A stretch of DNA of 64,000 nucleotides from Blastococcus sp. TF02A-26 (GTDB lineage Bacteria; Actinomycetota; Actinomycetes; Mycobacteriales; Geodermatophilaceae). Location: contig NZ_QOHG01000002.1 of assembly GCF_003319125.1 (NCBI RefSeq), positions 1 to 64,000 on the forward strand, given 5' to 3'. Below the pieces are notes generated by a model that was not told where the DNA came from, did not search any database, and saw only the letters and a program-made list of their open reading frames with translations. The position numbers were made by a program, and so were the translations under genes. Shown in pieces: positions 17,244-34,806 of this stretch; position 1 is the stretch's first letter, and each line of letters starts with the position of its first letter.

Positions 17244-17251
17244 GAGCGGCG

Positions 17252-17257
17252 AGCTTA
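17252..17257 (-). promoter_or_regulatory. -10 hexamer TAAGCT of the PDZ protease
   Basis: TAAGCT on the minus strand ends 8 nt before the GTG at 17243. The palindromic element begins only 4 bp further upstream, filling the -35 region. Confidence 0.6.
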
Positions 17258-17260
17258 TGT

Positions 17261-17319
17261 GAAGGACCTGGGTGCCCCCCACCGCTCGCACGCTCGCGGC
17301 GGGCCCCTGCACCCAGGCC
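17261..17319. repeat. Palindromic element copy A
   Basis: Outer arms CCTGGGTGC (17267-17275) and GCACCCAGG (17309-17317) are perfectly complementary. Between them lies the shared core CCCCCACCGCTCGC...GCTCGCGGCGGGCCCCT. Flanks AAGGA on the left and CC on the right match copies B and C. It sits between two divergent leaderless promoters. Confidence 0.8.
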
Positions 17320-17378
17320 GTGCGCCGTGGGCGTAACCGATCGTCTCCCGAACGGCTGGCCGGGGAGATCATCGCGAC

Positions 17379-17384
17379 TACCGT
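17379..17384 (+). promoter_or_regulatory. -10 hexamer TACCGT of the DUF2342 gene
   Basis: TACCGT ends 6 nt before the ATG at 17391; no Shine-Dalgarno is present. Confidence 0.6.
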
Positions 17385-17390
17385 GGAGCC

Positions 17391-18734
17391 ATGAGTGACG
17401 TGCCGTTCGGCTTCGGCCTGCCCGACCCCGACCCCGAGCGTCGCAACCAGGGCGGGGCCGGCAACGACCCCTTCGGGTTCGGCGCGCTCTTCGGCGGTGG
17501 CGCAGGCGCGGGCGCCGGCACCCCGCAGGAGTTCCTGGCCAAGATGCCGCTGTTCGCCGAGCTGCAGAAGCTGATGACCTGGTCCGGCGGGCCGGTCAAC
17601 TGGGACCTCGCCCGCCAGGGCGCGATCAGCGCGCTGGCCGCCGGGACGCAGCCGGTGTCCGACGCCGAGCGGACGGCGGTCACCGAGGCGCTGCGGCTGG
17701 CCGACCTGTGGCTGGACCAGGCCACCGACCTGCCCTCGGGCGTGGAGCGCACCCTCGCCTGGTCCCGCGTCGAGTGGGTCGAGCAGACGCTCCCGCAGTG
17801 GGCGACGCTCATCGACCCGCTCGCCGAGCGCGTGGTCGCCGCCATGACCGGCGCCCTCCCCCAGGAGGCCATGGCGATGGCCGGGCCGCTCGCCGGGATG
17901 ATGGGCCAGGTCGGTGGGCTGATGTTCGGCGCCCAGGTGGGCCAGGCCTTCGGCCGGCTGGCCGGGGAGATCCTCACCGGCACCGAGGTCGGTCTGCCGG
18001 TCGCGCCCGCCGGGGCCGCGGTCCTCGTCCCGCAGAACGTCGCCGAGTTCGCCGCCGGCCTCGACCGCCCGGCCGACGAGGTCCGCTTGTTCCTCGCCCT
18101 GCGCGAGGCCGCCTCCCTGCGGCTGTTCGCGCACGTGCCGTGGCTGCGCCAGCAGCTGCACGACGCCGTCCACGCCTACGCCCGCGGCATCACCGTCGAT
18201 CGCGAGGCCATCGAGCGGGGCATCACCGAGGCCATGGGTTCCGGCGGCATCGACCCCAACGACCCCGAGAGCCTGCAGCGGCTGCTGCCCATGCTCGAGC
18301 CGGAGGAGACCCCCGAGCAGCAGATGGCGCTGCGCCGGCTGGAGACGCTCCTCGCGCTCGTCGAGGGCTGGGTGGACGCCGTCGTGGCCGCCGCGGCCGG
18401 CGACCGGCTGCCCGGGCACGGGGCCCTGGCCGAGACCATGCGCCGCCGCCGGGCCTCGGGCGGACCGGCCGAGCAGACCTTCGCCACGCTCGTCGGCCTG
18501 CAGCTGCGCCCCCGCCGGCTGCGCGACGCGGCGACCGTGTGGGGCGCGATGGCCCAGCAGCACGGCACGGCCGAGCGGGACCGGCTCTGGTCGCACCCGG
18601 ACCTGCTGCCGACGTCGGAGGACCTCGACGAGCCGCTGGACTTCGTCGGCCGCCAGGGCGGCGGTCTCGACGACGAGCTGCGGGGCCTGACCGACGGGGA
18701 GCCCGAGGACGGCCGGGAGACGGGCCGGGACTGA
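17391..18734 (+). CDS. Zinc-dependent metalloprotease-like protein (DUF2342)
   Basis: A 447-residue protein of the actinobacterial DUF2342/zincin-2 family. A Gly-rich start (FGALFGGGAGAGAG) leads into a helical core with WTLIDPLAERV-like segments, LPVAPAGAAVLVPQNVAEFA and the conserved LREAASLRLFAHVPWL region, where Glu and His are likely metal ligands. Protease activity is assumed from the family and has not been widely shown. The ATG is supported by the leaderless promoter. It diverges from the PDZ protease, as in mycobacteria. Confidence 0.85.
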   Translation: MSDVPFGFGLPDPDPERRNQGGAGNDPFGFGALFGGGAGAGAGTPQEFLAKMPLFAELQKLMTWSGGPVNWDLARQGAISALAAGTQPVSDAERTAVTEALRLADLWLDQATDLPSGVERTLAWSRVEWVEQTLPQWATLIDPLAERVVAAMTGALPQEAMAMAGPLAGMMGQVGGLMFGAQVGQAFGRLAGEILTGTEVGLPVAPAGAAVLVPQNVAEFAAGLDRPADEVRLFLALREAASLRLFAHVPWLRQQLHDAVHAYARGITVDREAIERGITEAMGSGGIDPNDPESLQRLLPMLEPEETPEQQMALRRLETLLALVEGWVDAVVAAAAGDRLPGHGALAETMRRRRASGGPAEQTFATLVGLQLRPRRLRDAATVWGAMAQQHGTAERDRLWSHPDLLPTSEDLDEPLDFVGRQGGGLDDELRGLTDGEPEDGRETGRD

Positions 18735-18752
18735 GGTCCGGCCGGACCGGCC

Positions 18753-19409
18753 TCAGAGGACGAGGTCGTCGTCCTCCGAGGACGCGGCGCCGGCGTCCTG
18801 GCGGGCCGTCTCGACGCCCTCGAGGAACCCCCGCGCGCGCTCGGCGCGGGGGTAGCGGGCGACGAGCGCCCAGAACCGCTGGTCGTGGCTCGGCTCGATC
18901 AGGTGCGCGAGCTCGTGCACGAGCACGTAGTCGACGACGTACTCGGGCATCCCGCGCAGCCGGCTGGACAGGCGGATGCTGCCGTCGGACGGCGTGCACG
19001 AGCCCCAGCGGCGCTGCTGGTTGTCGACCCACCGCACGCTGCTGGGCTGCGGGACGCCGTCCAGGTGGGCCGCCGACAGGGCCCGGGCGCGCGCCACGAG
19101 CTCGTCGTCGGCCCCGAGCGACCGGCGGCGGCGTTCCTCGCGGGTCTGCAGCTTGGCCACCATCTGGGCCACCCAGCGGCGCTCCTCGGCCGGGGTGAAC
19201 GCCGCGGGGATCAGCACGATGGTGCGGCCGGACTCGCGGTACGCCGTCACGGTGCGACGGCGCCGGGCGCTGCGGCGCACCTCGATCGGCCCCATGGCCC
19301 TGCCCGCGAGCTCCGGCCCGACCGCGGGCAGCGCGCGGGGAGCCCGGTCGGCCGGCGGTCGATCCGCCGGTCGGGGGCTGTTCGGGGTGTCGGGGGTCCT
19401 TCCGGGCAC
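18753..19409 (-). CDS. YgjP/SprT-like M48-related metallopeptidase
   Basis: A 218-residue protein with the DUF45/YgjP fold. Visible signatures are [31 protein letters not shown] and the zincin helix [16 protein letters not shown] with its HExxH and downstream His. It is probably cytoplasmic; the substrate is unknown. GTG 19409 is chosen because TACCGT lies 7 nt upstream; an ATG at 19295 would trim 38 disordered Pro/Arg-rich residues and is a fair alternative. It is convergent with the DUF2342 gene. Confidence 0.85.
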
Positions 19410-19416
19410 GGAGTGC

Positions 19417-19422
19417 ACGGTA
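19417..19422 (-). promoter_or_regulatory. -10 hexamer TACCGT of the YgjP-like gene
   Basis: On the minus strand it ends 7 nt before the GTG at 19409. Confidence 0.55.
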
Positions 19423-19734
19423 GTCAGGCCCCGGGGGCGCCGCCGCACGGCGACACCCACTCGGGTGCAGGTCCGCACGGACGGTGGACACGGACGTGCA
19501 CCCGACCCGGCGACGTGCTGCACTGTCCGGCCTCCACAGCCCCGCGCAGCGTGTTCCCGCAGGTCGAGGGGCTCATCGGCGGCACAGGAGGGAGCCAGCC
19601 GGGACCGCTGTCCCGAGCCCGCCCACAGCGACACGCCACGGACTCCCCAGCTCCTCCACAGCGTCGTCCACAGGCTGTGGGGAGCCGGGCCCCCGGCTCC
19701 CGCCCGATCACGGGGGCGGGAGGGGGCGGGCGGG

Positions 19735-19740
19735 TAGCGT
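19735..19740 (+). promoter_or_regulatory. -10 hexamer TAGCGT of the DUF5679 gene
   Basis: TAGCGT lies 59 nt upstream of the GTG at 19800, giving a short leader that contains an AGGAGGAGGAG ribosome-binding site. Confidence 0.5.
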
Positions 19741-19799
19741 TCCTGCCCAGCGGCGCCCCGGACCGGGGGCCGGACGAGCCCAGCAGGAGGAGGAGCACC

Positions 19800-19952
19800 G
19801 TGGCGGAGAGCTACAACGGCTACTGCGTGAAGTGCAAGGAGAAGCGCGACTTCGACGGCGAGGTCAAGGTCAGCGAGTCCGGCCGCCGGATGGCCCAGGG
19901 CACCTGCCCGGTCTGCGGCACCAAGATGAACCGGATCCTCGGCAAGGCCTGA
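19800..19952 (+). CDS. DUF5679 zinc-ribbon small protein
   Basis: A 50-residue protein with two CxxC knuckles ([12 protein letters not shown] and [13 protein letters not shown]) that should bind one zinc. The length and both knuckles match the DUF5679 family widespread in Actinobacteria; the role is unknown. The GTG start follows an AGGAGGAGGAG ribosome-binding site. A palindromic element (copy B) begins 2 bp after the stop and probably terminates the transcript. Confidence 0.88.
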
Positions 19953-19953
19953 A

Positions 19954-20012
19954 GAAGGACCCCTTCGCCCCCCACCGCTCGCGAGCTCGCGGCGGGCCCC
20001 TGCGAAGGGGCC
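19954..20012. repeat. Palindromic element copy B
   Basis: Outer arms CCCCTTCGC (19960-19968) and GCGAAGGGG (20002-20010) pair perfectly. The core contains the 12-bp palindrome CGCGAGCTCGCG. The core is nearly identical to copies A and C while the arms differ. Placed directly after the DUF5679 stop. Confidence 0.85.
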
Positions 20013-20117
20013 GGGGGTACAGACGGCGGCGTACCCCTCGGGGGCGCCGCCGTCGGCGTGTCTGCCGCTTGTGGACGACGACGGCATCGCCCCGCCGACG
20101 GTGCCAGGCTGCCCGGC

Positions 20118-21167
20118 GTGTCCGACACCGCCCACCCGCTGCTGCCGTCCACCACGCCCCTCCTGCGCCGCGCCGGCGACGCCGTCCAGGTGGGTGGCGT
20201 GGACGCCGGCGACGGGCTGGTGGTGCGCCCCGCGGCCGCCGAGGTGACGACGCTGCTGCGCGGCCTGGACGGCCGGCGACCGCAGCGGTCGGTGCTCGCC
20301 GACGCGGTCACCGCCGGCTTCGACGCCGCCGCCGTCGCGGGTCTGCTCGACGGGCTGCGCAGCACCGGACTCCTGGTCGACCTCGACCCCGCCGACCTGC
20401 TGGCCTCCGACGCCGGTCCGGCCGCCGTCGCGCGGACCGCGGCCGAGCTCCCCGCGGCCCGCGGCACCTCTCCCGGCGCGGCGCGGTGGGCGGCCCGACG
20501 CCGTGCCACGGTGGTCGTCGAGGGCGCCACGCGGGTCGGCGTGCCGCTGGCCGCGGTGCTCGCCGCCAGCGGGGTGGGCCGGGTCAGCGTGCGGGACCGC
20601 GGCGTGGTGGGAGCCGGGGACGCCGTGGTCGGTGGACTCTCGGCCGAGGACGAGGGGCGACCGCGCGCCCTGGCCGCCGCCGACGCCGTTCGCCGGGCCA
20701 GCCCGCTGGCCGACGTGCGGCCGCTGCCGGACGGGGTGCTGCCGGACCTCGTGGTGCTGGCCCGCCCGTGGGCGGCCGCCGATCCGGTGGTGACCGTCTG
20801 GCAGTCGGCCGGCGCCGCGCACCTGGTGGCGACCGTCCGCGGGGAGACCGGCGTCGTGGGCCCGCTGGTCGTGCCGGGGCGGACCAGCTGCCTGGGCTGC
20901 GCCGACCTGCACCGCCGCGACGCCGACCCCTCGTGGCCGGCGCTGGCCGCCCAGCTCACCGCCACCGACGCGCCGCCCGGCGGTTCGACCCTCACCTGCC
21001 TGCTGACCGCCGTGACCGCCGCCCAGCAGGCACTCGCCTACCTGGACGGCAGCGGCGCGCCCGCGACACTGGAGGCCACGGTGGAACTCCGGTGGCCCGA
21101 GCTCGTGCCGGCCCGCCGCCGGTGGCCCGCCCACGCGGAGTGCGGCTGCCTGGACGCGCCCGCATGA
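20118..21167 (+). CDS. ThiF-like protein (TOMM leader-binding/cyclodehydratase-like)
   Basis: A 349-residue protein. Residues 1-100 form a winged-helix-like domain ([33 protein letters not shown]) like the peptide-binding half of TOMM cyclodehydratase partners. Residues 130-330 are a degenerate ThiF/E1 fold ([21 protein letters not shown]). Zinc cysteines are present as CLGC and CGC. The usual E1 ATP-binding GxGxxG is altered, so adenylation is doubtful. No YcaO or precursor peptide is adjacent. The GTG at 20118 has a CAGGCT hexamer 7 nt upstream. Confidence 0.75.
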
Positions 21168-21172
21168 CCCCC

Positions 21173-21210
21173 GGGGAGGACTTCCTCCCCCCACGCCCGG
21201 CGACCGGGCG
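21173..21210 (+). terminator. Tandem hairpins after the ThiF-like gene
   Basis: GGGGAGGA (21173-21180) pairs with TCCTCCCC (21183-21190), and CGCCCGG (21194-21200) pairs with CCGGGCG (21204-21210). The run CTCCCCCCACGCCC recalls the palindromic element but the right arm is missing. Confidence 0.5.
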
Positions 21211-21308
21211 CACCGACGGGGATGATGGCTCCAGGAGCGTCGTCCCGGTGACCGGCTCCCGGACGACCCGACACCGCCGTGACCGACCAGCGTCAGCGAG
21301 GAGGACAC

Positions 21309-22631
21309 GTGCCCGACAGCGAGCGGCCGATCCCCAAGGGCTCGGTGGCCCGCACGGCGCGCCTGGCCTCCCTTCCGCTGGGCGCCGCCGGGCGCGCCAC
21401 CCTCGGCCTGGGCAAGCGGCTGTCGGGGCAGTCCTCCGAGGCCGTCTCGGCCGAGTTGCAGCAGCGCACCGCCGAGCAGTTGTTCGCCGTCCTGGGTCAG
21501 CTCAAGGGCGGCGCGATGAAGCTCGGCCAGACCCTGTCGGTGTTCGAGGCCGCGGTCCCCGAGGAGGTCGCCGCCCCCTACCGCGAGGCCCTGGTCAAGC
21601 TGCAGGAGGAGGCGCCGCCGATGCCGGTGCGCACCGTGCACGCGGTGCTCGCCCAGCAGCTCGGCGGGAAGTGGCGCGAGCGGTTCCGACACTTCGACGA
21701 CCAGCCGGCGGCCGCCGCCAGCATCGGGCAGGTGCACCGCGCGACCTGGCGTGACGGCCGCGACGTGGCGGTGAAGATCCAGTACCCCGGCGCCGCGACC
21801 GCCCTCATGGCCGACCTCAACCAGCTGGCCCGCTTCGCCCGGATGTTCGCCGCGCTGTTCCCCGGCATGGACGTCAAGCCGCTCATCGCCGAGCTCAAGG
21901 CCCGGGTGATCGAGGAGCTGGACTACGGGTTGGAGGCCGACGCCCAGCGGCAGTTCTCCGCCGCCTACGTCGACGACCCCGACATCGTCGTCCCGCGGGT
22001 GGTCGCCAGCGCACCGAAGGTGATCGTGTCGGAGTGGCTGGAGGGCACTCCCCTGTCGCGGGTCATCGCCGACGGGACGCGGGAGCAGCGCGACCGCGCC
22101 GGGCTCCTCATGGCCCGGCTGCACTTCTCCGGCCCGCAGCGGGCGGGGCTGCTGCACGCCGACCCGCACCCGGGCAACTTCCGGCTCGTCCCCGACGGCC
22201 GGCTCGGCGTCATCGACTTCGGCGCCACCGCCCGGCTGCCCGACGGGCATCCGGAGCCGATCGGCCGGCTGCTCCGCTGGGCGCTCGACGGCCGGGCGGA
22301 GGACGTGCTGGTCGACCTGCGCGCCGAGGGGTTCGTCCGGGCCGGCGTGGAGGTCGACGCCGACGCCGTGCTCGGGTACCTGGAGCCGCTGCTGGCGCCG
22401 ATCGAGACCGACCACTTCCACTTCACGCGGGCGTGGATGCAGGAGCAGGCGGCCCGCATCGCCGATCCGCGCAACGAGGCGAGCCGGCTGGGCCGGCAGC
22501 TCAACCTGCCGCCGGCCTACCTGCTCATCCACCGGGTGACGATCGGCTCCATCGGCGTGCTGTGCCAGCTGGACTCGGCCGGGGACTTCCGCGCCGTCCT
22601 GGAGGAGTGGCTCCCCGGCTTCACCGGCTGA
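21309..22631 (+). CDS. ABC1/AarF/UbiB-type atypical kinase
   Basis: A 440-residue kinase-like protein. It has the KxGQ-type motif in its actinobacterial form ([17 protein letters not shown]), the VAVKIQYPG lysine, the catalytic loop [13 protein letters not shown] and [10 protein letters not shown] in place of DFG. UbiB/ABC1 proteins act as ATPases supporting isoprenoid lipid metabolism; the actinobacterial role is unclear. GTG 21309 is preferred over 21279 because AGGAGG precedes it and [20 protein letters not shown] matches the mycobacterial N-terminus from memory. It faces dapA convergently. Confidence 0.9.
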
Positions 22632-22639
22632 GCCGGACC

Positions 22640-23503
22640 TCAGCCGCGGGCGACCTCGAGCAGGCCGTGGCGCTCGAGCATCGCCCGGACCACCGCCGTC
22701 TCCTGCTCGTCGGCCTCGACGAGCGGCAGCCGCAGGCGGGCCGAGCAGTGGCCCAGCAGTGCCAGGGCGCGCTTGATGCCGATCGGGTTGGTGGTCACCG
22801 CCAGCGCGGCGTAGACGTCGCGCAGGGAGGCGTCGATCCCGGCCCGCTCCTCCGGCTCGGTGACCATCCGGCGCATCTCGGATCCGAGGACGTGACTGGC
22901 CACGAGGATGCCGCCGACCGCGCCGGCGTCCAGCGCCCGGGCGAAGGAGTCGTCGTTGCCCGCGTAGAGGTCCAGGCCCTCGATCGGCGCGAGGTTGTCG
23001 TCGTTGGCCTGCTTGACGCCGACGATGTTGTCCGCGAGCTGCGCGATCTCGGCCAGCAGGTCGTTGGGGACGTCGATGACCGACCGCGACGGGATGTTGT
23101 AGAGCAGGACCGGCTTGTCGGTGCTGCGCGCCACCTCGGCGTAGTGCGCGAGCAGACCGCGGCGGTTGGGCTTGTTGTAGTACGGCGTGACGGACAGGAC
23201 GCCGTCGACGCCGAGCTCGGTGGCCTTCGCGGTGAGCTCGCAGGCGTGGCGGGTGTCGTTGGAGCCCGTCCCCGCGATGACCTGGGCGCCCTCCGGCTTC
23301 TCGCGGACGGCCAGCTCGATCACCCGCAGGTGCTCGCTGTCGCTGAGGGTCGCCGCCTCACCGGTGCTCCCGGCCACCACGACGCCGTCGGACCCGGTGG
23401 CGCAGACGTGCCGGAGGAGGGCGACGAAGGCCTCCTCGTCGACGTCCCCGCGCTCGTCGAACGGTGTGACGATCGCCGTCAGGACGGGGCCGAAGCGGAT
23501 CAT
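22640..23503 (-). CDS. dapA: 4-hydroxy-tetrahydrodipicolinate synthase
   Basis: A 287-residue TIM-barrel aldolase of lysine and meso-diaminopimelate synthesis, condensing pyruvate with aspartate semialdehyde. Signatures are [21 protein letters not shown], the Tyr of LLYNIPSRS and the Schiff-base Lys of IVGVKQAND. The product also supplies peptidoglycan. The ATG at 23503 has a TAGCCT -10 at 7 nt, so it has its own leaderless promoter, separated from the whiB7 operon by a strong hairpin. Confidence 0.95.
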
Positions 23504-23510
23504 GGCCGCC

Positions 23511-23516
23511 AGGCTA
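23511..23516 (-). promoter_or_regulatory. -10 hexamer TAGCCT of dapA
   Basis: On the minus strand TAGCCT ends 7 nt before the ATG at 23503. Confidence 0.6.
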
Positions 23517-23521
23517 TCCGG

Positions 23522-23564
23522 CGGCCGGACGCCACTCGACGGGCCGTCGAGTGGCGTCCGGCCG
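23522..23564 (-). terminator. Terminator of the whiB7 operon
   Basis: A perfect 19-bp stem (23522-23540 with 23546-23564) with a 5-nt loop, 7 bp past the stop of the small coupled gene. It insulates dapA from the whiB7 transcript. Confidence 0.8.
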
Positions 23565-23571
23565 GTGGCCG

Positions 23572-23811
23572 TCAGCGGACGGCGGCGCTGGCGCGGGCCG
23601 CGCGCAGCCGCGCGTGCTCCGCGCGGCGGGCCCAGCGCCGGGCGGCGCGCAGCCGGCGCAGCCGCGTGGCCGTGTCGGCCTGGTGCCGCAGCTCCGCCAG
23701 CCGGTCGCAGGCCAGGTCGTACTCGTAGCCGTACATCTGGATCGCCTCGTTCCGGAGGGCGACCGCCCTGGACAGGGTCGGCCGGGGTGGTGGTCGGGTG
23801 GTGTCGTTCAC
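23572..23811 (-). CDS. Small basic helical protein coupled to whiB7
   Basis: A 79-residue protein of unknown function. Its GTG overlaps the whiB7 TGA (GTGA at 23808-23811), so translation is probably coupled. A short disordered start is followed by SRAVALRNEAIQMYGYEY, then a long Arg/Ala-rich helix (RLRRLRAARRWARRAEHARL) suited to binding nucleic acid or a ribosome. The strong terminator comes right after it, which marks it as the last gene of the whiB7 transcript. Confidence 0.65.
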   Translation of the reverse strand: MNDTTRPPPRPTLSRAVALRNEAIQMYGYEYDLACDRLAELRHQADTATRLRRLRAARRWARRAEHARLRAARASAAVR

Positions 23812-24155
23812 GCCGCGACGACCTTCCGGGGACGTCCCCGGGGCCGCTTGCGGGCGATGACGGCGCCGCGCTCGAAGATCTCGCCGCCCCACACCCCCCA
23901 CGGCTCGGCGCGGGCCAGGGCGCCGGCCAGGCACGCCTCGCGCACCGGGCAGTCGGCGCAGAAGGCCTTCGCCTGCTCCAGCTGCTCGGGCCGCTCGGCG
24001 AACCACAGGTCGCGGTCCTCCTCGCGGCACGGCAGCGGACGCCGCACCGGCGCGGGGGTGACGGGCGCCTGCGGCCGACGCGGGGTGGTGGCGCCACCGG
24101 TCCGGGGGGCGCCGGGACGGCGGTGGGACACCGGGCGGGTCAGGGTCGACTGCAC
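23808..24155 (-). CDS. whiB7: WhiB7/WblC-type redox transcriptional regulator
   Basis: A 115-residue WhiB protein. Four cysteines for the 4Fe-4S cluster (PCREED, FCADCP, REAC), the turn GVWGGEIF and a C-terminal AT-hook RGRPRK identify the WhiB7 subclass. In mycobacteria and Streptomyces it binds SigA and AT-rich DNA just upstream of -35 elements and activates intrinsic resistance to ribosome-targeting antibiotics. The GTG follows GAGGAGGAG. Upstream lie a hairpin, a small ORF and a promoter with an AT-rich box, the layout of a ribosome-mediated attenuator. Confidence 0.95.
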   Translation of the reverse strand: MQSTLTRPVSHRRPGAPRTGGATTPRRPQAPVTPAPVRRPLPCREEDRDLWFAERPEQLEQAKAFCADCPVREACLAGALARAEPWGVWGGEIFERGAVIARKRPRGRPRKVVAA

Positions 24156-24237
24156 TGCCGCTCCTCCTCGTTGTCGTCGTCTCCGGCCGGCGGTTCCGCC
24201 GACCGTGTGGTGGGGCCGGGTGCCGCAGGAATGACGA

Positions 24238-24271
24238 AGGCCGCGGATCCCGGGGTTCGGGTCCGCGGCCT
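24238..24271 (-). promoter_or_regulatory. Attenuator hairpin in the whiB7 leader
   Basis: AGGCCGCGGA (24238-24247) and TCCGCGGCCT (24262-24271) form a 10-bp stem that can extend inward. On the transcript it follows the leader ORF stop by about 20 nt and is followed by a short T-containing stretch. It lies 83 nt before whiB7. Confidence 0.65.
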
Positions 24272-24290
24272 CGAGGAGGTCCGGTGAGCG

Positions 24291-24569
24291 CTAGCTCAGC
24301 GGCCTGCCCGGGGAGTGGATCCCGACGGAGGGGTCGTTCTTGGTGGACTGCTCGTACGCGTGGAGCTCATCGGTGGCCGTGCCGGCGCCGAACGGCGTGC
24401 CGCCGGTCAGGGCGCGCAGGCGGACGGCGGGCACACGGGTGCCGGCGAACGGAGCCGGTGCGGCAGCGGTGGCCGTCGCGACGGCCGCGAAGGCGCTGAG
24501 ACCGGCCGGGCACGTGGCGATGACCCCGGCGATCGGAGCCGGGGTGGCCGTCCAGGTCATGTCGATCAC
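24291..24569 (-). CDS. Candidate leader ORF upstream of whiB7
   Basis: A 92-codon reading frame from GTG 24569, preceded by GGAGGAGGGG at 8 nt, and ending in TAG just before the attenuator hairpin. The peptide is Ala/Thr/Pro-rich (VIDMTWTATPAPIAG; AVATATAAAPAPFAG) with no family. In characterised whiB7/wblC leaders, stalled translation of an upstream ORF prevents terminator formation. Here the position fits that role; whether all 92 codons are translated is uncertain, and ATG 24551 is an alternative start. Confidence 0.5.
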   Translation of the reverse strand: MIDMTWTATPAPIAGVIATCPAGLSAFAAVATATAAAPAPFAGTRVPAVRLRALTGGTPFGAGTATDELHAYEQSTKNDPSVGIHSPGRPLS

Positions 24570-24661
24570 CAGTGCCACCCCTCCTCCCGGGGACGCGGTG
24601 CGGCCGTGGTCGGCGGCACCGGAGTTGGTGCGGCCCGAGGTCGTCCCCGGGCGCGATCAGG

Positions 24662-24700
24662 ACAGTAGGGGGCGCGTCGGAGGAGGGTCAACGCAATTAA
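24662..24700 (-). promoter_or_regulatory. whiB7: whiB7 promoter with AT-rich WhiB7-binding box
   Basis: On the minus strand: TTAATTG (24700-24694), then TTGACC as -35 (24691-24686), an 18-nt spacer and TACTGT as -10 (24667-24662). An AT-rich block a few bases upstream of -35 is the known WhiB7 autoregulation signature, and this is one of the few AT-rich heptamers in the window. Confidence 0.75.
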
Positions 24701-24767
24701 CGACGACGTCCCCCGAGGGCGTGGCCCGGTCGCGACGGGTCGACCTGCCGTGACCCGGCGCACATCC

Positions 24768-26762: not shown

Positions 26763-26882
26763 CCCCCGATACTCCCAGTCGGCACCGACGGTCCGGGGAA
26801 GCATCCCCGGGCCCGTGGTGTTGCCCGGTCGGGACAGCGGAACCGTCCCGGACCCGAACCACAGCACTGGGAGGACCCCTCG

Positions 26883-27146: not shown

Positions 27147-27171
27147 GCCGCGGCCGGCGGGCCGCCGCGGC
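27147..27171 (+). terminator. Hairpin after the mycoredoxin gene
   Basis: GCCGCGGC occurs at 27147-27154 and again at 27164-27171; being self-complementary the two copies pair around a 9-nt loop, directly after the stop. Confidence 0.4.
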
Positions 27172-27287
27172 ACGTACCCGTCGGCATCTCCCGGCAACGC
27201 CCCCGCACGGGGCATGATCGGGGACCGACGGACCGCACCGGGCGGCCCGCACCCGGGAACGGCCGGTTCTCCTCGGAGGTCGAAGAC

Positions 27288-27914
27288 GTGAGCACCCCCG
27301 AGCACCCGCACGGTGCTCCCGGCTGCTGCCCGGGGACCGCTGGTCCCCCGGGGGTGACGGTCGTGCGCACCGCCCGCGGCTGGTCCGTGGTCGCGCCCGG
27401 GTCGGTCACGGACGTGCACGACCTCCTCGAGGGGCTGTCGCTCGCCGACCTGCTGGCCGAGGCCACCGGGTCGACGCCCGAGCCGGACCGGACCACCCGC
27501 CGCGCCGCCCGCGGTCCGGCGGCGGTGGACGCCGGCGGCGACGTCGACCCGCGGGACGCGCGGGTGGCCACGCTGGAGCGCACGGTCGCCCAGCTGGAGC
27601 ACGCCCTCGCCGCCCGCGTCTCCACGGAGCGCGCGATCGGCGTCCTCGCCGAGCGGCACGGCACCACCCCGCGCTCGGCGTTCGAGCTGCTGCGCGGCGA
27701 GGCCCGCAGCACCGGGCGGCCCGTGCACGAGCTCGCCCGCGCCGTCCTGCAGCCGCTCGACGAGCGTCCGGTGGTCCCGCTGACCGCCGTCGCGCCGTCC
27801 CCGGAGCCCGTCGCGGCAGCCGAGGTGCCGCTGCCGCCCGCCCCGCGGATGCCCGGCAGCCGCCGGTCCCGCAGCCGTGCGGGCGCCGTGGTGACAGGGG
27901 ACGACCGCTCCTGA
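27288..27914 (+). CDS. ANTAR-domain protein
   Basis: A 208-residue protein with a C-terminal ANTAR RNA-binding helix bundle (LEHALAARVSTERAIGVLAE, then SAFELLRGEARSTGR and VHELARAVL), preceded by a predicted coiled coil (ARVATLERTVAQLEHAL). ANTAR proteins bind paired hexaloop stems and prevent termination. The N-terminal 90 residues show no receiver or GAF domain, so the input signal is unclear. The GTG follows GGAGG by 8 nt. Its TGA overlaps the inferred CTG start of the next gene. Confidence 0.85.
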   Translation: MSTPEHPHGAPGCCPGTAGPPGVTVVRTARGWSVVAPGSVTDVHDLLEGLSLADLLAEATGSTPEPDRTTRRAARGPAAVDAGGDVDPRDARVATLERTVAQLEHALAARVSTERAIGVLAERHGTTPRSAFELLRGEARSTGRPVHELARAVLQPLDERPVVPLTAVAPSPEPVAAAEVPLPPAPRMPGSRRSRSRAGAVVTGDDRS

Positions 27915-28561
27915 CCCGCCCCGAACCGCTCGGGCCCGACGTGCTGGCCGACCGGCTGGCCGGGCTGCTCGCCGCGCTCCCGGCGGAGCCCGGCGCGACG
28001 GCCCTGCGCGTCGCCGTCGACGGCCCCGACGTCGCCGACCCGGGCGGACTGGCGGGCGCGGTGGCCGAGCGGCTCCCCGTGCTCGGCCGGCCGGCCGTGG
28101 TCGTGCCCGCCGAGGGCTTCTTCCGGCCCGCGTCGCTGCGGCTGGAGCACGGCCGCACCGACCCCGACGCCCGGTACACCGACTGGCTCGACGCCGGCGC
28201 CCTGGCCCGCGAGGTGCTGGACCCGCTCGGCCCCGGCGGGAGCGGCGAGTACCTGCCGGTGCTGTGGGACCTCGCCCGCAACCGGGCCGCCCGGGTGCCG
28301 CGCCGTCCGCTGCCGGGAGGCGGGGCGCTGCTGGTGCCGGGCGCCTTCCTGCAGGGCATGGGGCTGGCCTTCGACGCCGTCGTCCACCTCCGCGTCGCCC
28401 CGGCGGCACGCCGCCGCCGGACCCCGGCCGAGGACGCGTGGCAGCTGCCTGCCTACGACCGGTACGACGACGAGGTCGACCCCGCCGGCCTGGCCGACGC
28501 GGTGGTGCTGGCCGACTCCCCCGACCACCCGGCGCTGGTCCTGCAGGGGCGGTTCACCTAG
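27911..28561 (+). CDS. Uridine-kinase-like protein lacking a P-loop
   Basis: A 216-residue protein resembling actinobacterial uridine-kinase-like hypotheticals: RPASLRLEHGRTDPDARYTDW, LVPGAFLQGMGLAFDAVVHL and RRRTPAEDAWQLPAYDRY. The P-loop position reads VAVDGPDVADPGGLAG and has no GK[ST], so phosphoryl transfer is doubtful. CTG 27911 within CTGA overlaps the ANTAR stop and has AGGGGA about 9 nt upstream; the first conventional start, GTG 27941, has no ribosome-binding site and would cut conserved residues. Confidence 0.7.
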   Translation: MTRPEPLGPDVLADRLAGLLAALPAEPGATALRVAVDGPDVADPGGLAGAVAERLPVLGRPAVVVPAEGFFRPASLRLEHGRTDPDARYTDWLDAGALAREVLDPLGPGGSGEYLPVLWDLARNRAARVPRRPLPGGGALLVPGAFLQGMGLAFDAVVHLRVAPAARRRRTPAEDAWQLPAYDRYDDEVDPAGLADAVVLADSPDHPALVLQGRFT

Positions 28562-28570
28562 GGGACGCCG

Positions 28571-29524
28571 TCACAGCTCGCCGGCGACCCAGCGGTCGAT
28601 GAGGTTCCGCGCGATCGACACCGGCGGCGGCAGGATCTGCGGACCCTCCCCCGAGCGCAGCTCGTCGCGGGAGAACCAGCGGGCCTCCTCGATCTCGGTC
28701 GGGTCCAGCCGCAGCGCCTGGTCGCCCTCCACACGGGCGGTGAAGCCCAGCATCAGCGACTGCGGGAACGGCCAGGGCTGGCTGGTGACGTAGCGGACGT
28801 CGGTCACCTGCACGCCGACCTCCTCGAACACCTCCCGGGCCACCGCACCCTCGGCGGACTCCCCCGGCTCGACGAACCCGGCCAGGACCGAGAACCGCCC
28901 CGGCGGCCACACGGCCTGGCGGCCCAGCACGCAGCGGTCGCCGCCGTCGTGCACGAGCATGATCACGGCCGGGTCGGTGCGCGGGAACAGCTCGGCGCCG
29001 GTGACCGGGTCGCGCTGCACCCAGCCGGCCTTCTCGATGGTGGTGGCGGCGCCGGACAGCGGGCTGAACCGGGCGCGGGCGTGCCACTCGAGGATGCCGA
29101 TGGCCTGCGCGAGGAGCCCCGCCTCGAGGTCGTCGAGGTCGGCGCCGAGCTCGCGCAGGTCGTGCCAGCCGTCGACGTCCCGCCCGTTGACCGTCAATGC
29201 CCGCTCACCGCGCACGGCGGCGTAGGGGACGTCGTCGGCCTCGCCGAGGTAGACGGCACCCGTCGGCAGGGCGGCTTGCTCGTCCCACACCAGCCGGGGG
29301 CTCCCGGACCCGCGGCTCACCGGGACGGTGCCGCGCGGGTCGACCGTCAGCACCCGGACGGGCCGGCCGCCGGTGGGACCGGGCAGCGAGCGGGCCAGGT
29401 GCGCGCGGTCGTGCGCGGAGCGCGACAGGACCGGCACGAGGCCGGTGGTCGCGCGGTCGTCGTCGCCCCAGGCGTCCCGCGGGGGGTTGTCCGCCGGGGT
29501 GCTCCCGCCGTCCGGGACGCTCAC
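28571..29524 (-). CDS. nudC: NADH pyrophosphatase NudC
   Basis: A 317-residue Nudix hydrolase. The Nudix box GFVEPGESAEGAVAREVFEEVG is followed by the NudC-specific SQPWPFPQSLM array. NudC cleaves NAD(H) to NMN and AMP and can remove NAD caps from RNA. The zinc-ribbon position that normally holds CxxC before PRTDPAVI reads FSPLSG and QRDP here, so the zinc site appears lost. The GTG at 29524 overlaps the upstream M16 stop (GTGA), so it is coupled to that gene. Confidence 0.92.
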   Translation of the reverse strand: MSVPDGGSTPADNPPRDAWGDDDRATTGLVPVLSRSAHDRAHLARSLPGPTGGRPVRVLTVDPRGTVPVSRGSGSPRLVWDEQAALPTGAVYLGEADDVPYAAVRGERALTVNGRDVDGWHDLRELGADLDDLEAGLLAQAIGILEWHARARFSPLSGAATTIEKAGWVQRDPVTGAELFPRTDPAVIMLVHDGGDRCVLGRQAVWPPGRFSVLAGFVEPGESAEGAVAREVFEEVGVQVTDVRYVTSQPWPFPQSLMLGFTARVEGDQALRLDPTEIEEARWFSRDELRSGEGPQILPPPVSIARNLIDRWVAGEL

Positions 29525-30900
29525 GCCTCGCCCGTCGTCTGCTCCACCGTCTCGCTGACCACGACCGGCCCCAGGGCCCGCAGCGGCTCGGCGATCTGCC
29601 CGGCGTCGCCGACGACGACCGCGGTCAGCGCGTCCGGCGCCAGGTACCGGCGGGCGGCCTCCTGCACCTCGTCGACGGTGACGGCGGCCAGCGCCCGCTG
29701 GTGCTCGGCCAGCCAACCCGGTTCCAGGCCCGCCCCGATGAGGGCGGAGAGCGTGCTGGCCAGGCCGGCGTGCGTGGCCGTGGACAGCGCCATGGACCCG
29801 AGCACGTAGCGGCGGGCGCCGTCGAGCTCCGCCTCGGTCACCGGCAGCAGCGCCATCCGGCCCAGCTCGTAGAGCGTCTCGAGCAGGGCCGGCCCGGTGA
29901 CCTCGGTGGCGACGTCGGCCTCGACGACGAAGGACGAGGCCGCGGCGAGGTGGTCGACGGAGCTGCGCGGGCTGTAGGTGTAGCCGCGCCGCTCGCGGAT
30001 GTTCTCCACCAGACGCGAGGAGAAGTAGCCGCCGAAGACCATGTTGGCCAACCGGACGGCGGGCAGGTCGGCGTCGGTGCGGCGCGGAGCCGGCCCGCCG
30101 AGGCGCAGGTTGGACTGCACCGCGCCGGGCCGGTCGACCACCTGCAGCTCGGGGACCCGCTGCTCGGCCACCGGCGGCGCGACCACGGCGCTGCCCTCTC
30201 CGGTCCAGCCGGCGAGCGCGGCGGCGGCGGCGTCGACGGCCCCGGCGGGGTCGACGTCACCGACGAGGACGAGCGTGCTGCCGGCCGGGACGATCCGGTC
30301 GCGGTGCAGCTTGCGCAGCGCGGTGGCCCGGACCAGCGCCACCTGCTCGGCGGCCGGCAGCTGCAGGGCGTACGGGTGCGCGCCGTAGCGCCGCTCGGCC
30401 AGCGCGGTGCGGGCGATGACGCCGGGCTGCGACCGGGCGATGGCGATCCGCTCGGCGACACGGGCGCGCTCGGCCTCGACCTGGGCGTTCGGGTAGGTCG
30501 CCGAGGTGAGCAGCTCCGCGAGGACGCCGAGGACCGGTGCCAGCCCGTCGGTGGGCAGGGTGGTGGAGAACAGCACCCGGTCGGGGTCGGTGGAGACCGC
30601 GAGCTCGCCGCCGTGGGCCTGCACCAGCTGGGCGATCTCGGTCTGGTCGTGCTGCTCGGTGCCGAGGAGGACGGCGCCGGCGAGCACCGAGGCCCGGGCG
30701 CCGTGCTGGGCCGCGGCGCGCGCCGTCCCGGCGGCGAAGGGCACCCGCAGGCGCAGCTCCACCAGGGGCACGCCCGGCCGGGGGACGACGACCACGCGGA
30801 GCCCGTTGGGCAGGGTCTGCTCGGTGACCGCCAGCTCCGGCTGCGGGCGCGGCTCCCCCAGCGGCGGGACCAGGTCGAGGTCGAGCACCGGTGCACTCAT
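29521..30900 (-). CDS. M16 peptidase family, non-catalytic partner
   Basis: A 459-residue M16 protein with two homologous halves. The HxxEH zinc motif is replaced by AAAQHGARASVL, so it should be inactive, while the C-terminal RxxGYTYSPRSS signature is intact (RERRGYTYSPRS). Such subunits pair with a catalytic M16 protein to form the clamshell chamber. It starts by ATGA overlap with the catalytic gene upstream. Confidence 0.9.
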   Translation of the reverse strand: MSAPVLDLDLVPPLGEPRPQPELAVTEQTLPNGLRVVVVPRPGVPLVELRLRVPFAAGTARAAAQHGARASVLAGAVLLGTEQHDQTEIAQLVQAHGGELAVSTDPDRVLFSTTLPTDGLAPVLGVLAELLTSATYPNAQVEAERARVAERIAIARSQPGVIARTALAERRYGAHPYALQLPAAEQVALVRATALRKLHRDRIVPAGSTLVLVGDVDPAGAVDAAAAALAGWTGEGSAVVAPPVAEQRVPELQVVDRPGAVQSNLRLGGPAPRRTDADLPAVRLANMVFGGYFSSRLVENIRERRGYTYSPRSSVDHLAAASSFVVEADVATEVTGPALLETLYELGRMALLPVTEAELDGARRYVLGSMALSTATHAGLASTLSALIGAGLEPGWLAEHQRALAAVTVDEVQEAARRYLAPDALTAVVVGDAGQIAEPLRALGPVVVSETVEQTTGEA

Positions 30901-32207
30901 CGCTTGCCTCCCGTGGCCTGGAGCTCGAGGACGGCGACGGTGCCCGGATCGAGCCCGCGGGCGGCGGTCTGCACCTGGTCGGGGGTGACTGCGGCCAGGC
31001 GCGCGGCGAACTCGCCGGCGAGTTCGGCACGGCCGTGGATCAGCTCCGAGGCCGCGAACTCCAGGGTGCGGCCCAGGACGCTGTCGGCCTGGCGCAGCAG
31101 CTGCGCCTCGGCCCGGGCCTGCACGCGGGCGAGCTCCTCGACCTCGACGCCCTGCCGGGCCACCGTGGCGATCTCCTCGTGCACCGCGCCGACGACGGCG
31201 TCCACCGGGACGGCGGCCGGGTGGTGCACCTGGGTGGTGAGCAGCGTGGCGTCGCGGACGTCGAACGGGTCGCCGAACAGCCCGACGTAGCTGCTCTGGG
31301 CGACGGCGAGCGACTCGTCGTGGACCAGCCGGCGCTCCAGCCGGGAGGCGTCGCCCTCGCTCAGCAGCTCGGCGAGCAGCACGGTGCCGAGGTAGGTGTC
31401 GAGGTCGCCGACCGGGTCGGGCACCCGCCAGCCGAGCGCGACCGCGGGCGCGGGCGCGAGGCGGTCCTCGACGACGGCGGAGCGGACCGCGGTCGGCGAG
31501 GGCTCCCCCGTCGCCGGGGTGGCCGGCACGTCGCGGGCGTCGACGGCGCCGAACCAGCGGCGCACCAGCCGCTCGGTCTCGGCGACGTCGAGGTCGCCGC
31601 CGACGCACAGCACCGCGTTGCCCGGCGCGTAGTACTTGTGGAAGAAGTCCGCGGCGTCGTCGACGGTGGAGGACTCCAGATCCACGAACGAGCCGTAGCC
31701 GTCGTGGGTGTTGGCGAAGCTCTCGAAGGCCACCGGCGGCAGCTGCAGCCAGGGGAAGGCGCCGTAGGGCCGGTTGAGCACGTTGACCCGGATCTCCTCC
31801 TTGACCACGTCGATCTGGTTGCGGAGGTTCTCGGCGGTGATCGCCGGGGCGGCCATGCGGTCGGCCTCGAGGAACAGGGCCCGCTCGAGCGCCTCGGCGG
31901 GGAGCGCCTCGTAGTAGTTCGTGTAGTCCTGGTGCGTCGACCCGTTGAAGGTGCCGCCGGCGGCCTGGACCAGCCGGGCGTGCTCCATCTTCGGGACGTG
32001 CGCCGAGCCCTGGAACATCAGGTGCTCGAAGAGGTGGGCGAATCCGGTGCGGCCCTCGGGCTCGTTGCGCATGCCGACGTCGTAGAAGACGGTCACGGCC
32101 ACGACCGGCACGCTGCGGTCGGGCGCCAGGACGACCCGCAGGCCGTTGTCCAGGCGGAAGCGCTCCACCGGGTGCCGGATGGTCAGGTCGGCCCCAGCTG
32201 CTGTCAC
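30897..32207 (-). CDS. M16 zinc peptidase, catalytic subunit
   Basis: A 436-residue processing-peptidase-like protein with the inverted zinc motif HLFEHLMFQGS and the downstream Glu in the region around EIRVNVLNRPYG. It probably degrades peptides together with the inactive partner encoded just downstream. The GTG at 32207 has TAGGGT 6 nt upstream, marking a leaderless promoter for the M16-M16-nudC operon. Confidence 0.93.
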   Translation of the reverse strand: MTAAGADLTIRHPVERFRLDNGLRVVLAPDRSVPVVAVTVFYDVGMRNEPEGRTGFAHLFEHLMFQGSAHVPKMEHARLVQAAGGTFNGSTHQDYTNYYEALPAEALERALFLEADRMAAPAITAENLRNQIDVVKEEIRVNVLNRPYGAFPWLQLPPVAFESFANTHDGYGSFVDLESSTVDDAADFFHKYYAPGNAVLCVGGDLDVAETERLVRRWFGAVDARDVPATPATGEPSPTAVRSAVVEDRLAPAPAVALGWRVPDPVGDLDTYLGTVLLAELLSEGDASRLERRLVHDESLAVAQSSYVGLFGDPFDVRDATLLTTQVHHPAAVPVDAVVGAVHEEIATVARQGVEVEELARVQARAEAQLLRQADSVLGRTLEFAASELIHGRAELAGEFAARLAAVTPDQVQTAARGLDPGTVAVLELQATGGKR

Positions 32208-32213
32208 GACCCG

Positions 32214-32219
32214 ACCCTA
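32214..32219 (-). promoter_or_regulatory. -10 hexamer TAGGGT of the M16 operon
   Basis: On the minus strand it ends 6 nt before the GTG at 32207. Confidence 0.6.
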
Positions 32220-32239
32220 ACCGCGATGATCGCGGCGCG

Positions 32240-33127
32240 TCAGAGCACGTCGACCGAGGCCACGACCTGGTCGATGACGCCGTACAGCTCGGCGTGGGTG
32301 TTCGGGATCGAGAGGTAGAGCAGCGCGGGCTGGGCACGACCGACGTCGACCAGCAGCAGCGCGGCGCGCTCGCCGCTGGCGTCGTAGCCCGGCACCTCCC
32401 AGGTGAGCCGGAACTCGATCAGGTGCGCGGGGGCGCCGTCGACGGTGAGGGCCTCGTCCCGCAGCACCTCCTGCTGGTTGGGCGCCGGGTAGTAGTTGGT
32501 CCGCGCGCGGTCCGCCACCTGCTGCACCGTGGCCTGGAGGCTGCCCGGCCCGGCGTAGCCGAACTCCGGCGCCAGCGGGCCCGACGTGCACTGCGCGATG
32601 AAGACGCCGTCGGGCGTCTGGTCCTGAGTGACGAAGTACTGGCCGGCGGTCTCGGTGGTCTCGATCATCGGGAGCAGGTCCCACTCCGACCAGCCGTCAC
32701 CGAGGTAGGGGTAGGCGATCCCCGCGGCCTCGTCGACGATCCGCACCGTGCCGGGCGGGAAGGCGTTGCCCGACGGCCCCGCCGGGCCGCCGCTCGGCCC
32801 CGCCGCCTCGCCCGGGTCCCCGCCACCGCCCTTGCCGACCAGCAGCCCGAGGACGACGACGAGCACCACCGCGAGCACGCCCAGCCCGATCCCCCACGCG
32901 AGGCGACCGCGCCGGGGCGGCGGGGCGCCGACCGGCTGGTGGGTGACCGGCCGGGCCGGGGCGAGGGTGGGCGCGGCACCGGCCGCCGCCTGCACCGCGA
33001 CCCCGGGACCGGCGGGGGTCGTGACGTCGGACCAGGACAGGCCGTTCCACCAGCGGACCATGCCGGGGGTGCCGTCGGGGTCGGGGTACCAGCCCGCGGG
33101 CGCGGAGGGCTCGCCAGGTCCGGTCAC
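32240..33127 (-). CDS. DUF2510 membrane protein with extracytoplasmic domain
   Basis: A 295-residue protein. Residues 10-35 form a DUF2510 motif (AGWYPDPDGTPGMVRWWNG..W), followed by a Pro-rich linker, one membrane helix (AWGIGLGVLAVVLVVVLGLLV), a Gly/Pro linker and an external domain of about 165 residues with a single Cys. Function is unknown. GTG 33127 has TACCCT 6 nt upstream. Together with the kinase next door it may form a membrane signalling unit, which is inference. Confidence 0.85.
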   Translation of the reverse strand: MTGPGEPSAPAGWYPDPDGTPGMVRWWNGLSWSDVTTPAGPGVAVQAAAGAAPTLAPARPVTHQPVGAPPPRRGRLAWGIGLGVLAVVLVVVLGLLVGKGGGGDPGEAAGPSGGPAGPSGNAFPPGTVRIVDEAAGIAYPYLGDGWSEWDLLPMIETTETAGQYFVTQDQTPDGVFIAQCTSGPLAPEFGYAGPGSLQATVQQVADRARTNYYPAPNQQEVLRDEALTVDGAPAHLIEFRLTWEVPGYDASGERAALLLVDVGRAQPALLYLSIPNTHAELYGVIDQVVASVDVL

Positions 33128-33133
33128 GCGCTC

Positions 33134-33139
33134 AGGGTA
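33134..33139 (-). promoter_or_regulatory. -10 hexamer TACCCT of the DUF2510 gene
   Basis: On the minus strand it ends 6 nt before the GTG at 33127; it lies in the gap after the kinase stop. Confidence 0.55.
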
Positions 33140-33144
33140 GGAGA

Positions 33145-34806
33145 TCAGATCCCCCGGTCGGCGTTGTTCGCCCACCAGCTGGCGAAGTCGCCGAGGTCGT
33201 CCACGTCGCCGCCCGGCACGGAGACCTCGCCGCGGATGCCCAGGTCGTCCCACGCCCACACGAGCACCGCGTCGTTGCTCGCCTCGTCGACGTAGCAGGC
33301 GACGGTGCCGTAGACGGTCCCCTCGAAGTCGCTCACCACCTCGTACCCGTCGGGAGTGTCCTCCGACCCGCACTGGGACAGGCTCGACTCGAACTCGGGC
33401 AGACCCAGGCGGTCGATCGTCGCGGCCAGCCTCTCCCCCGCCGCGTCGTCCTCGACCACCGTGTACGTGCCGGCCGGCAGGGCCGCGTCCGGCGAGCCGT
33501 CCGGGCAGGAGAGCCGGCGCAGCTCGCCGCCGGACGGCTCCTGCGTCGTGCAGTCCTCGGGAGCGAGCTCACCGGGCAGCGCCAGGGCGAGCAGCCGGTC
33601 GGAGACGGCCGTCACGCCGTCGTCGGCCGAGTCCGCCCGCTGAGCCAGGACGACGGCGACGACGGCGAGCGCCAGCGTGGCCACGGTCAGGAGGGCGACC
33701 AGCACCCACGGCAGCCGCCTCCTGCGCGGAGCGGGCGCGCCCGGGGCGACAGCGCCCACCACGGTGGGCGGTGCGCCGGCTCCGAGCTGCTGGCGGGTGG
33801 CCGGCCGGTCGCCGTCCCAGGCGAGCGGGGCGACGGCGGTGCGGTTCCCGTCCGGCTGCGGGACCGGCACCCCGCTGCCGGCGAGCGCCTGGCGGGCCGC
33901 GGCAGCCAGGGCGCCCGCGGACTGCCAGCGCTGCTCGCGGTCCTTGGCCAGGCCGCGCAGCACGACGGCGTCGAGGGCCGGCGGCAGGCCCGGCCGGACC
34001 ACCGACGGGGCCGGCGGCTGCTCGTTGAGGTGCGCGTACATCAGGCCCACGGGGTCGCCGGGGGCGAAGGGGCGACGCCCGGTGAGCAGCTCGAACAGCA
34101 GGCAGGCCAGCGAGTAGACGTCCGCGCGGCCGTCCAGCGGAGAGCCGCTGAAGCGCTCCGGCGCCATGTACTCGGTGCTGCCGATGGCCAGCCCGGTGCC
34201 GGTGAGGGCCGGTCCGGTGCCCTCGTCCGCGGCGGCCCGGGCGATGCCGAAGTCGGCGAGGTAGGCGAAGTCCTCCCCGGGCGCGGAGCTCGCGAGGTCC
34301 CGGCCGTCGGCCCGCGCGACGAGCAGCACGTTGGAGGGCTTCACGTCGCGGTGCACCAGGCCGCCGGCGTGGGCGGCGTCCAGTGCCCGGGCGACCTGGC
34401 CGACGAGGTCCACGGCACGGGCCGGCACCAGCGGACCGGAGCGGGCGAGCAGGGAGGCGAGGTCCTCGCCCTCGACGAGCCGCATGTCGAGGAACAGCTG
34501 ACCGTCGATCTCGCCGTAGCGGTGGATCGGGACGACGTGCGGTTCGTTGAGCCGGGCGGCGATCTGCGCCTCGCGGCGGAACCGCTCGCGGTAGTTCTCG
34601 TCGGCGGCCAGCTCGCCGGGCAGCAGCTTGAGCGCGACGTCGCGCTGGTGCTCGGCGTCGTGCGCCCGGAGCACCTGGCCCATGCCGCCGCGGCCGAGCA
34701 CGCCGAGGACCCGGTAGGGGCCGAAGTGGAAGGACCCCTCGCCTCCCGCCCCTCGCGAGCTCGCGGCGGGCCCCTGCGAGGGGCCGTGCTCGTGCGGGGT
34801 GCTCAC
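33145..34806 (-). CDS. Membrane Ser/Thr protein kinase (PknB-like)
   Basis: A 553-residue Hanks-type kinase. Glycine loop LGRGGMGQV near residue 37, VALK lysine, HRDVKPSN catalytic loop, LADFGIA and GSTEYMAPE are all intact. A juxtamembrane linker precedes one membrane helix (LPWVLVALLTVATLALAVVA, about 355-378) and an external domain of about 170 residues with four Cys, unlike PASTA repeats. Residues 8-26 ([19 protein letters not shown]) are encoded by a palindromic element. The GTG overlaps the M20 stop. Confidence 0.93.
   Translation of the reverse strand: MSTPHEHGPSQGPAASSRGAGGEGSFHFGPYRVLGVLGRGGMGQVLRAHDAEHQRDVALKLLPGELAADENYRERFRREAQIAARLNEPHVVPIHRYGEIDGQLFLDMRLVEGEDLASLLARSGPLVPARAVDLVGQVARALDAAHAGGLVHRDVKPSNVLLVARADGRDLASSAPGEDFAYLADFGIARAAADEGTGPALTGTGLAIGSTEYMAPERFSGSPLDGRADVYSLACLLFELLTGRRPFAPGDPVGLMYAHLNEQPPAPSVVRPGLPPALDAVVLRGLAKDREQRWQSAGALAAAARQALAGSGVPVPQPDGNRTAVAPLAWDGDRPATRQQLGAGAPPTVVGAVAPGAPAPRRRRLPWVLVALLTVATLALAVVAVVLAQRADSADDGVTAVSDRLLALALPGELAPEDCTTQEPSGGELRRLSCPDGSPDAALPAGTYTVVEDDAAGERLAATIDRLGLPEFESSLSQCGSEDTPDGYEVVSDFEGTVYGTVACYVDEASNDAVLVWAWDDLGIRGEVSVPGGDVDDLGDFASWWANNADRGI
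34729..34785. repeat. Palindromic element copy C, within the kinase gene
   Basis: Arms CCCCTCGC (34735-34742) and GCGAGGGG (34776-34783) pair perfectly; relative to copy B each arm lost one matching base. The core contains CGCGAGCTCGCGGCGGGCCCC. It lies in frame near the kinase N-terminus. Confidence 0.85.

Follow-up and report, generated by a model that had tools for sequence, protein, structure and literature searches.

What keeps a DNA hairpin folding while the sequence of its arms changes? This question is raised by the first 64,000 nucleotides of contig NZ_QOHG01000002.1 of Blastococcus sp. TF02A-26 (hereafter the window), in which four copies of a hairpin element lie on the plus strand, where an initial annotation of the sequence had placed them (Table 1). 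As that annotation noted, the outer arm pairs of copies 1, 2 and 3 (CCTGGGTGC/GCACCCAGG, CCCCTTCGC/GCGAAGGGG and CCCCTCGC/GCGAGGGG) are all perfectly complementary, including a matched loss of one base from each arm of the third pair. Our analyses showed that the elements belong to a real and large family, similar to repetitive extragenic palindromic (REP) elements, whose members have moved since the host genera and species diverged. Our preferred reading, which we consider rather probable, is that an enzyme recognising the folded strand moves them as non-autonomous mobile hairpins about 58 bp long.

Each element starts with a GG.CC foot carrying a bulged A (mostly GAAGGA or GGAGGA on the 5' side), followed by an outer stem of 8-9 pairs, an internal loop (CC/CCCCT), an inner stem of 8 positions in which an A stands opposite a C, and the apical loop TCGCNNGCTC. 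The fold of copies 1 and 2 beats 200 of 200 dinucleotide shuffles each and that of copy 3 beats 199 of 200; for the divergent copy 4, 158 of 200 shuffles fold equally well or better. A register of the inner stem suggested by energy folding of copies 1 and 2 was dropped, as it pairs 63.3% of cells in 30 aligned copies versus 94.8% in the register adopted. Beyond the window, 81 copies were collected from named genomes by a pattern in which the core and arm ends were fixed and the arm middles left free. The outer arms had been said to differ entirely; their middles are indeed variable (27 distinct sequences in the 81 copies), but the arms are pyrimidine-rich on the 5' side. The core, annotated as conserved, is not constant: copy 3 has CTCCCGCCCCTCGC, whole inner stems are swapped between subfamilies (CCGC/GCGG, CGCC/GGCG and CCCC/GGGG; CCC/GGG versus CTC/GAG), and the inner stem covaries as well as the outer one.

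Pairing of the arms is far above chance, which supports the proposal of the initial annotation that what selection or mobilisation preserves is the fold, not the sequence. The arm middles are fully paired in 61 of the 81 copies, compared with a mean of 10.3 and a maximum of 20 when 3' arms are shuffled among copies, and 382 of 402 arm-middle cells pair, G-T counted (shuffled mean 284, maximum 301). Cells with double changes number 63 in a 30-copy alignment, against 20.4 after shuffling and at most 12 in slid controls, in a test whose structure was derived from the same sequences and which counts related copies repeatedly. Such covariation could also be a mutational artefact, in which template switching within imperfect palindromes makes one arm a copy of the other, with no need for selection on the fold. 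As this would predict, double changes occur often and intermediates with a one-sided wobble are scarce, and core-deleted hairpins and tandem partial copies suggest replication slippage; but the bulge and the inner wobble have been retained rather than corrected, loops that are fixed across genera require another cause, and dispersal is left unexplained. We regard such an artefact as quite improbable.

Neither of the outcomes that the initial annotation had named as refuting its reading, a scarcity of other copies or unpaired arms in them, was observed. A 14-mer core occurs 31 times without mismatch in the genome, and all 30 of those examined lie within a recognisable element; one exact-core element (L003) lacks most of its 5' arm. 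Allowing up to one mismatch gave 65 matches versus 59 for a reversed control, a count so near the control that alone it proves nothing, and it is the elements around the exact cores that reveal the family. A first covariance model, built from 18 copies, found at least 109 matches in the genome (E up to 0.01), and a second one (R2), built from 30 copies of several genomes, at least 120 copies, 150 candidates having been scored with each model. Matches were present in 101 of 112 Geodermatophilaceae genomes, with copy counts per genome that are lower bounds (about 48 at most recorded for any one). The 11 genomes without a match comprise every genome of three genera (coded g5, g8 and g10), plus G019 and G059, two nearly complete genomes most of whose congeners carry dozens of copies. 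In a set of 59 genomes, that of Blastococcus sp. TF02A-26 included, matches were found in 25 of the 35 genomes of the same family and in none of the 24 from other families of the order. When named genomes were scanned, 79 of the 80 loci among the matches listed were titled Geodermatophilus, Blastococcus, Modestobacter, Trujillonella or Geodermatophilaceae; the remaining locus comes from a Thermomicrobiales metagenome-assembled genome and is possibly mis-binned. As far as seen, the family is confined to the Geodermatophilaceae. In one genome, full copies are arrayed in tandem with a period of 66 bp (G020:C18:1-127 and G020:C24:140449-140641).

Empty sites, which the initial annotation had proposed to look for, were found. 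We compared 20 elements on 340 kb of the window's contig with the syntenic DNA of four relatives and, by our reading, 12 of them have a clear empty site in at least one relative, with length differences mostly of 40-60 bases. Copy 3 (E3) is missing in all four relatives. At one site (E15) the same subfamily is present in two genomes, and at two others (E8 and E16) the subfamilies differ. The copy-2 site, located behind one conserved gene, was followed in 58 genomes, where it is found empty, filled by several subfamilies, or occupied by core-deleted remnants, one reversed copy or nested copies. For the 39 of 69 loci with enough of the upstream gene for a tree, the site was classed by eye, several remnants being uncertain, as empty in 15 genomes, filled in 11, remnant in 9 and nested in 4, and the upstream-gene tree needs at least 18 state changes. 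In nested copies, a younger element lies inside the inner hairpin of an older one, some bases of which are missing (L323, L298, L302, L170 and L180); other loci hold partial tandem copies or mixed ones (L154, L155 and L201). Given the empty sites in relatives, the nested copies and the turnover at one orthologous site, the elements look mobile, and mobilisation is more directly supported than selection in place; at most sites, insertion would be the direction of change. At one locus (L342:8851-8972), a copy is nested in another copy and the loop holds a third, unrelated palindromic insert with AGGAGAATCC...GGATTCTC.

The positions of the elements relative to genes are far from random. A stop codon that ends a frame of 100 codons or more precedes the element by no more than 30 nt in 176 of 251 copies, and by no more than 3 nt in 156 of these 176. 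The 30-nt limit holds for 26-28 of 267 random positions, and for 11-37 of 240-255 positions at fixed offsets. The stop-codon counts include orthologous copies from the copy-2 site and are therefore not independent. Measured from GGAC, a stop (frame of at least 90 codons) is present within 14 nt in 157 of 223 copies, at one single spacing in 85; in the 66 remaining copies, C is favoured at -8 (40 copies) and G at -6 (46 copies). Some copies are located inside coding DNA. We read this distribution as reflecting a short target motif, often overlapping a stop codon, plus the loss of harmful insertions. No target duplication was detected in 79 copies, the best flank identity falling within the range of shuffled partners. 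At the 3' end, 90 of 256 copies have an opposite-strand stop, most often (21 copies) at a distance of 10 nt; the CGTCACC tail, together with open antisense frames, is the probable source of these stops.

The excess behind stop codons, well above random positions, is also what would be expected of functional 3' elements that end transcripts, protect mRNA or block antisense read-through and are kept by selection at each site, their mobility being old and incidental; stems that are still paired where loops have diverged fit this explanation too. However, no T-run follows the hairpin (T makes up 5-27% at each of 26 positions past GGCC in the 81 copies), the corresponding gene end in relatives is without the element, 11 of the 112 family genomes are unmatched, and some copies are located within coding DNA. 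Another inverted repeat, separate and GC-rich, follows at the copy-2 site whether or not the element is there. We consider a per-site 3' function unlikely to account for the family.

The bottom strand is probably the one that folds, as judged from wobble pairs and fold energy. The A of the inner 5' arm that faces a C corresponds to a G.T or G.U wobble on the bottom strand. Across 267 rows, orthologues included, this odd position reads A/C in 193, G/C in 29 and A/T in 20, which amounts to G.U, G-C or A-U on the bottom strand in 242 of 267, versus Watson-Crick pairs on the top strand in 49 of 267. Among the other stem mismatches of 175 copies, 47 are bottom-strand wobbles and 15 top-strand ones (binomial p 6e-5), a comparison that counts copies rather than events and omits the 75 rows of alignment A6 and four of the 18 pairs (a misaligned column, a subfamily-wide position and two foot pairs). 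The raw excess of A.C over G.T, 171 to 41, was set aside because it is inflated by the misaligned column (67 cells) and the subfamily-wide position (18 cells). Also set aside was alignment A8, in which two rows (L274 and L337) have wrong coordinates. The bottom strand is more stable than the top strand in 170 of 175 copies as RNA and in 145 of 175 as DNA. Both the wobble pattern and the fold energy would suit RNA-mediated spread, in which a bottom-strand hairpin RNA is reverse-transcribed and then inserted. Against this, a search for reverse transcriptase (PF00078) gave no match in this genome (G000), and the 49 of 112 family genomes that do match include the element-free G030, G011, G032 and G025; we find this route barely credible.

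The mobile hairpins that we favour would be moved by a single enzyme supplied from elsewhere in the genome. It would recognise the folded single strand, probably the bottom one, by its shape and a few fixed unpaired features, namely the bulge in the GG.CC foot, the 2x5 internal loop, the inner-stem wobble and the TCGCNNGCTC loop. Insertion would occur without target duplication beside short motifs, many of them overlapping a stop codon (CTGA), and also inside the hairpins of existing copies. As only copies that still fold could be recopied, stems would drift in matched pairs while unpaired features stay fixed, and this copying filter would be the cause of the covariation. A REP-associated tyrosine transposase, the enzyme suggested by the initial annotation, was not found: Y1_Tnp (PF01797) had no match in this genome or in any of the 112 family genomes, the same search being positive in 5 of 14 control genomes. 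No recurrent neighbour gene appeared among the 14 clusters listed from a BLASTP comparison of open reading frames (ORFs) of 80 of at least 112 loci, the largest clusters (5 loci) being orthologous regions or a common enzyme family. A gene-carrying version with split ends was sought at 214 loci, and none of the 16 half-element pairs within 4.5 kb was convincing. We hold it possible, if somewhat unlikely as a whole, that these hairpins are of an undescribed mobile kind, in which a fold of the bottom strand is recognised, the mover belongs to neither the Y1 (HUH) transposases nor the reverse transcriptases, and copies insert by stop codons and inside older copies, one copy replacing another in place.

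A DUF222 gene was also considered as the mobiliser and rejected; we read it as a target that was later duplicated, with elements in its 3' part (L002, L006 and L008). The DUF222 gene region is present in three copies (L002:445-1671, L006 and L008), L002 being about 85% identical to the others over 1.35 kb, and the 3' part of each region holds one and the same element copy, its arms identical in all three (Pfam scan of L002), as if the interrupted gene had been duplicated together with its element. The C-terminal motif that we presume to be typical of DUF222 is disrupted in the element-carrying copies.

Several points weigh against mobilisation by a fold-recognising enzyme. The searches turned up neither a mobiliser nor a recurrent neighbour gene, and no version carrying a gene. 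The number of state changes at the copy-2 site is near that of shuffled labels (mean 20.1; as low in 32 of 200), a scatter that leaves little phylogenetic signal and to which the classes assigned by eye may add noise. Nested copies counted by exact arm complementarity, 6 of 248 (5 accepted on reading), do not exceed a shuffled control (mean 2.2, maximum 7); the claim of nesting is made because the host remainders match the element, not because of this count. Strand-biased mutation can also produce the 47-to-15 ratio of wobbles. Orthologous copies of one subfamily (L299, L300 and L317) have uncompensated arm mismatches, and at that same site L344 differs from L298 by a matched change at one arm position. 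Finally, 3.3% of stem cells are unpaired in copies with an intact loop (118 of 240), and 7.1% and 8.9% where loop divergence averages 22% and 34%, well below free drift. Selection in place would likewise leave stems 91-93% paired despite 22-34% loop divergence; as paired copies are more readily picked up by the covariance search and some of the loop differences distinguish subfamilies, we do not count these figures as proof of it. Selection in place and a copying filter may both act.

Coordinates are given in Table 1. Copy 1 is flanked by a Lon_C/PDZ gene starting at 17243 on the minus strand (a start codon of our choice) and a Zincin_2 gene starting at 17391 on the plus strand. Copy 3 is in frame, at the N-terminal coding end of its gene. 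Copy 4 overlaps the 3' end of a convergent ORF. The initial annotation had listed placement in a promoter gap, after a stop, inside a gene and between convergent ends. In many copies from several genera, including L144, L148, L163, L172, L194, L211, L217, L218, L290 and L298, a 3' tail near GTTCCAGCACGTCACC is present just past GGCC, which suggests a longer form of the element. The window also contains two near-identical tRNA genes on the minus strand, at 11443-11516 and 12941-13014, about 1.5 kb apart. At gathering scores, Rfam 15 matched only two tRNAs in the whole window; with E up to 5, positions 17151-20150 gave three matches, far below gathering scores and none on an element.

Table 1. 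Hairpin elements of the window and anatomy of copy 2 (scores from R2, the 30-copy covariance model).
Feature	Positions	Strand	Score (bits)	Description
Copy 1	17261..17319	+	81.5	Between divergent gene starts
Copy 2	19954..20012	+	81.8	One base past TGA (19950-19952) of a DUF5679-domain gene
Copy 3	34729..34785	+	67.8	Inside protein-kinase gene 33145-34806 (minus strand)
Copy 4 (divergent)	6317..6374	+	59.0	Starts directly behind TAG of an RsgA-like GTPase gene
5' foot, copy 2	19954..19959	+		GAAGGA, conserved; GG pairs with terminal CC; A is the bulge (T on the bottom strand)
Outer 5' arm, copy 2	19960..19968	+		Variable, covarying
Internal loop 5' side, copy 2	19969..19970	+		CC; TC in one subfamily
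Inner 5' arm, copy 2	19971..19978	+		CCCACCGC; CCCACGCC, CTCACCCC in other subfamilies
Apical loop, copy 2	19979..19988	+		TCGCNNGCTC, conserved
Inner 3' arm, copy 2	19989..19996	+		GCGGCGGG; GGCGCGGG, GGGGCGAG in other subfamilies
Internal loop 3' side, copy 2	19997..20001	+		CCCCT; CCTCT in one subfamily
Outer 3' arm and terminal CC, copy 2	20002..20012	+		Arm is 20002-20010

No description of this hairpin family was found in the literature covered, from which subscription papers were mostly absent. According to the accessible part of a survey of REP elements (PMC3733652), these are also high-copy palindromes located mostly downstream of genes, with some copies within genes; they form dimers and tandem groups, show G-T pairing in their stems and include subfamilies with alternative complementary stem residues, and those of the GTAG type often provide a stop codon. 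REPs are 20-40 bp long in that text (PMC3733652), compared with about 58 bp here, and the present elements, unlike REPs, have two stems with a fixed bulge, an internal loop and an apical loop, and wobbles on the bottom strand. The GTAG/CGTC tag of REPs is absent from the hairpin foot here; CGTC is present in the GTTCCAGCACGTCACC-like tail, away from the foot. The same part of the survey reports a Y1 REP-associated tyrosine transposase for GTAG REPs and apparently no dedicated one for the CGTC superfamily (PMC3733652); unlike GTAG REPs, the elements described here are without a Y1 transposase match in 112 genomes. Actinobacteria are not among the phyla named in that part, and the word is absent from the main text (PMC3733652).

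From what is accessible there, CGTC REPs are one case of palindromic repeats without a known transposase (PMC3733652), and such repeats are an open problem. A large family, empty and filled states of one site in 58 genomes and the match-free G019 and G059 make the Geodermatophilaceae a good system for finding the enzyme, and for telling whether a fold is under selection or is required for copying.

Bacterial miniature inverted-repeat transposable elements (MITEs), as described in the accessible part of PMC10969869, are similarly short, non-autonomous, dispersed and able to fold. In contrast to MITEs, the present elements are GC-rich and show neither target-site duplication nor terminal inverted repeats shared between copies. 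Rickettsia palindromic elements are found in frame inside genes; they belong to an unrelated host group, and the likeness is one of description. The attC sites of integrons are hairpins recognised by their fold and extrahelical bases, with variable arms and a location at gene ends. This likeness is again by description, and the neighbouring genes here look like ordinary chromosomal genes. Although the family differs from it in length, architecture, probable folded strand and Y1 transposase match, the REP element is the closest described kind.

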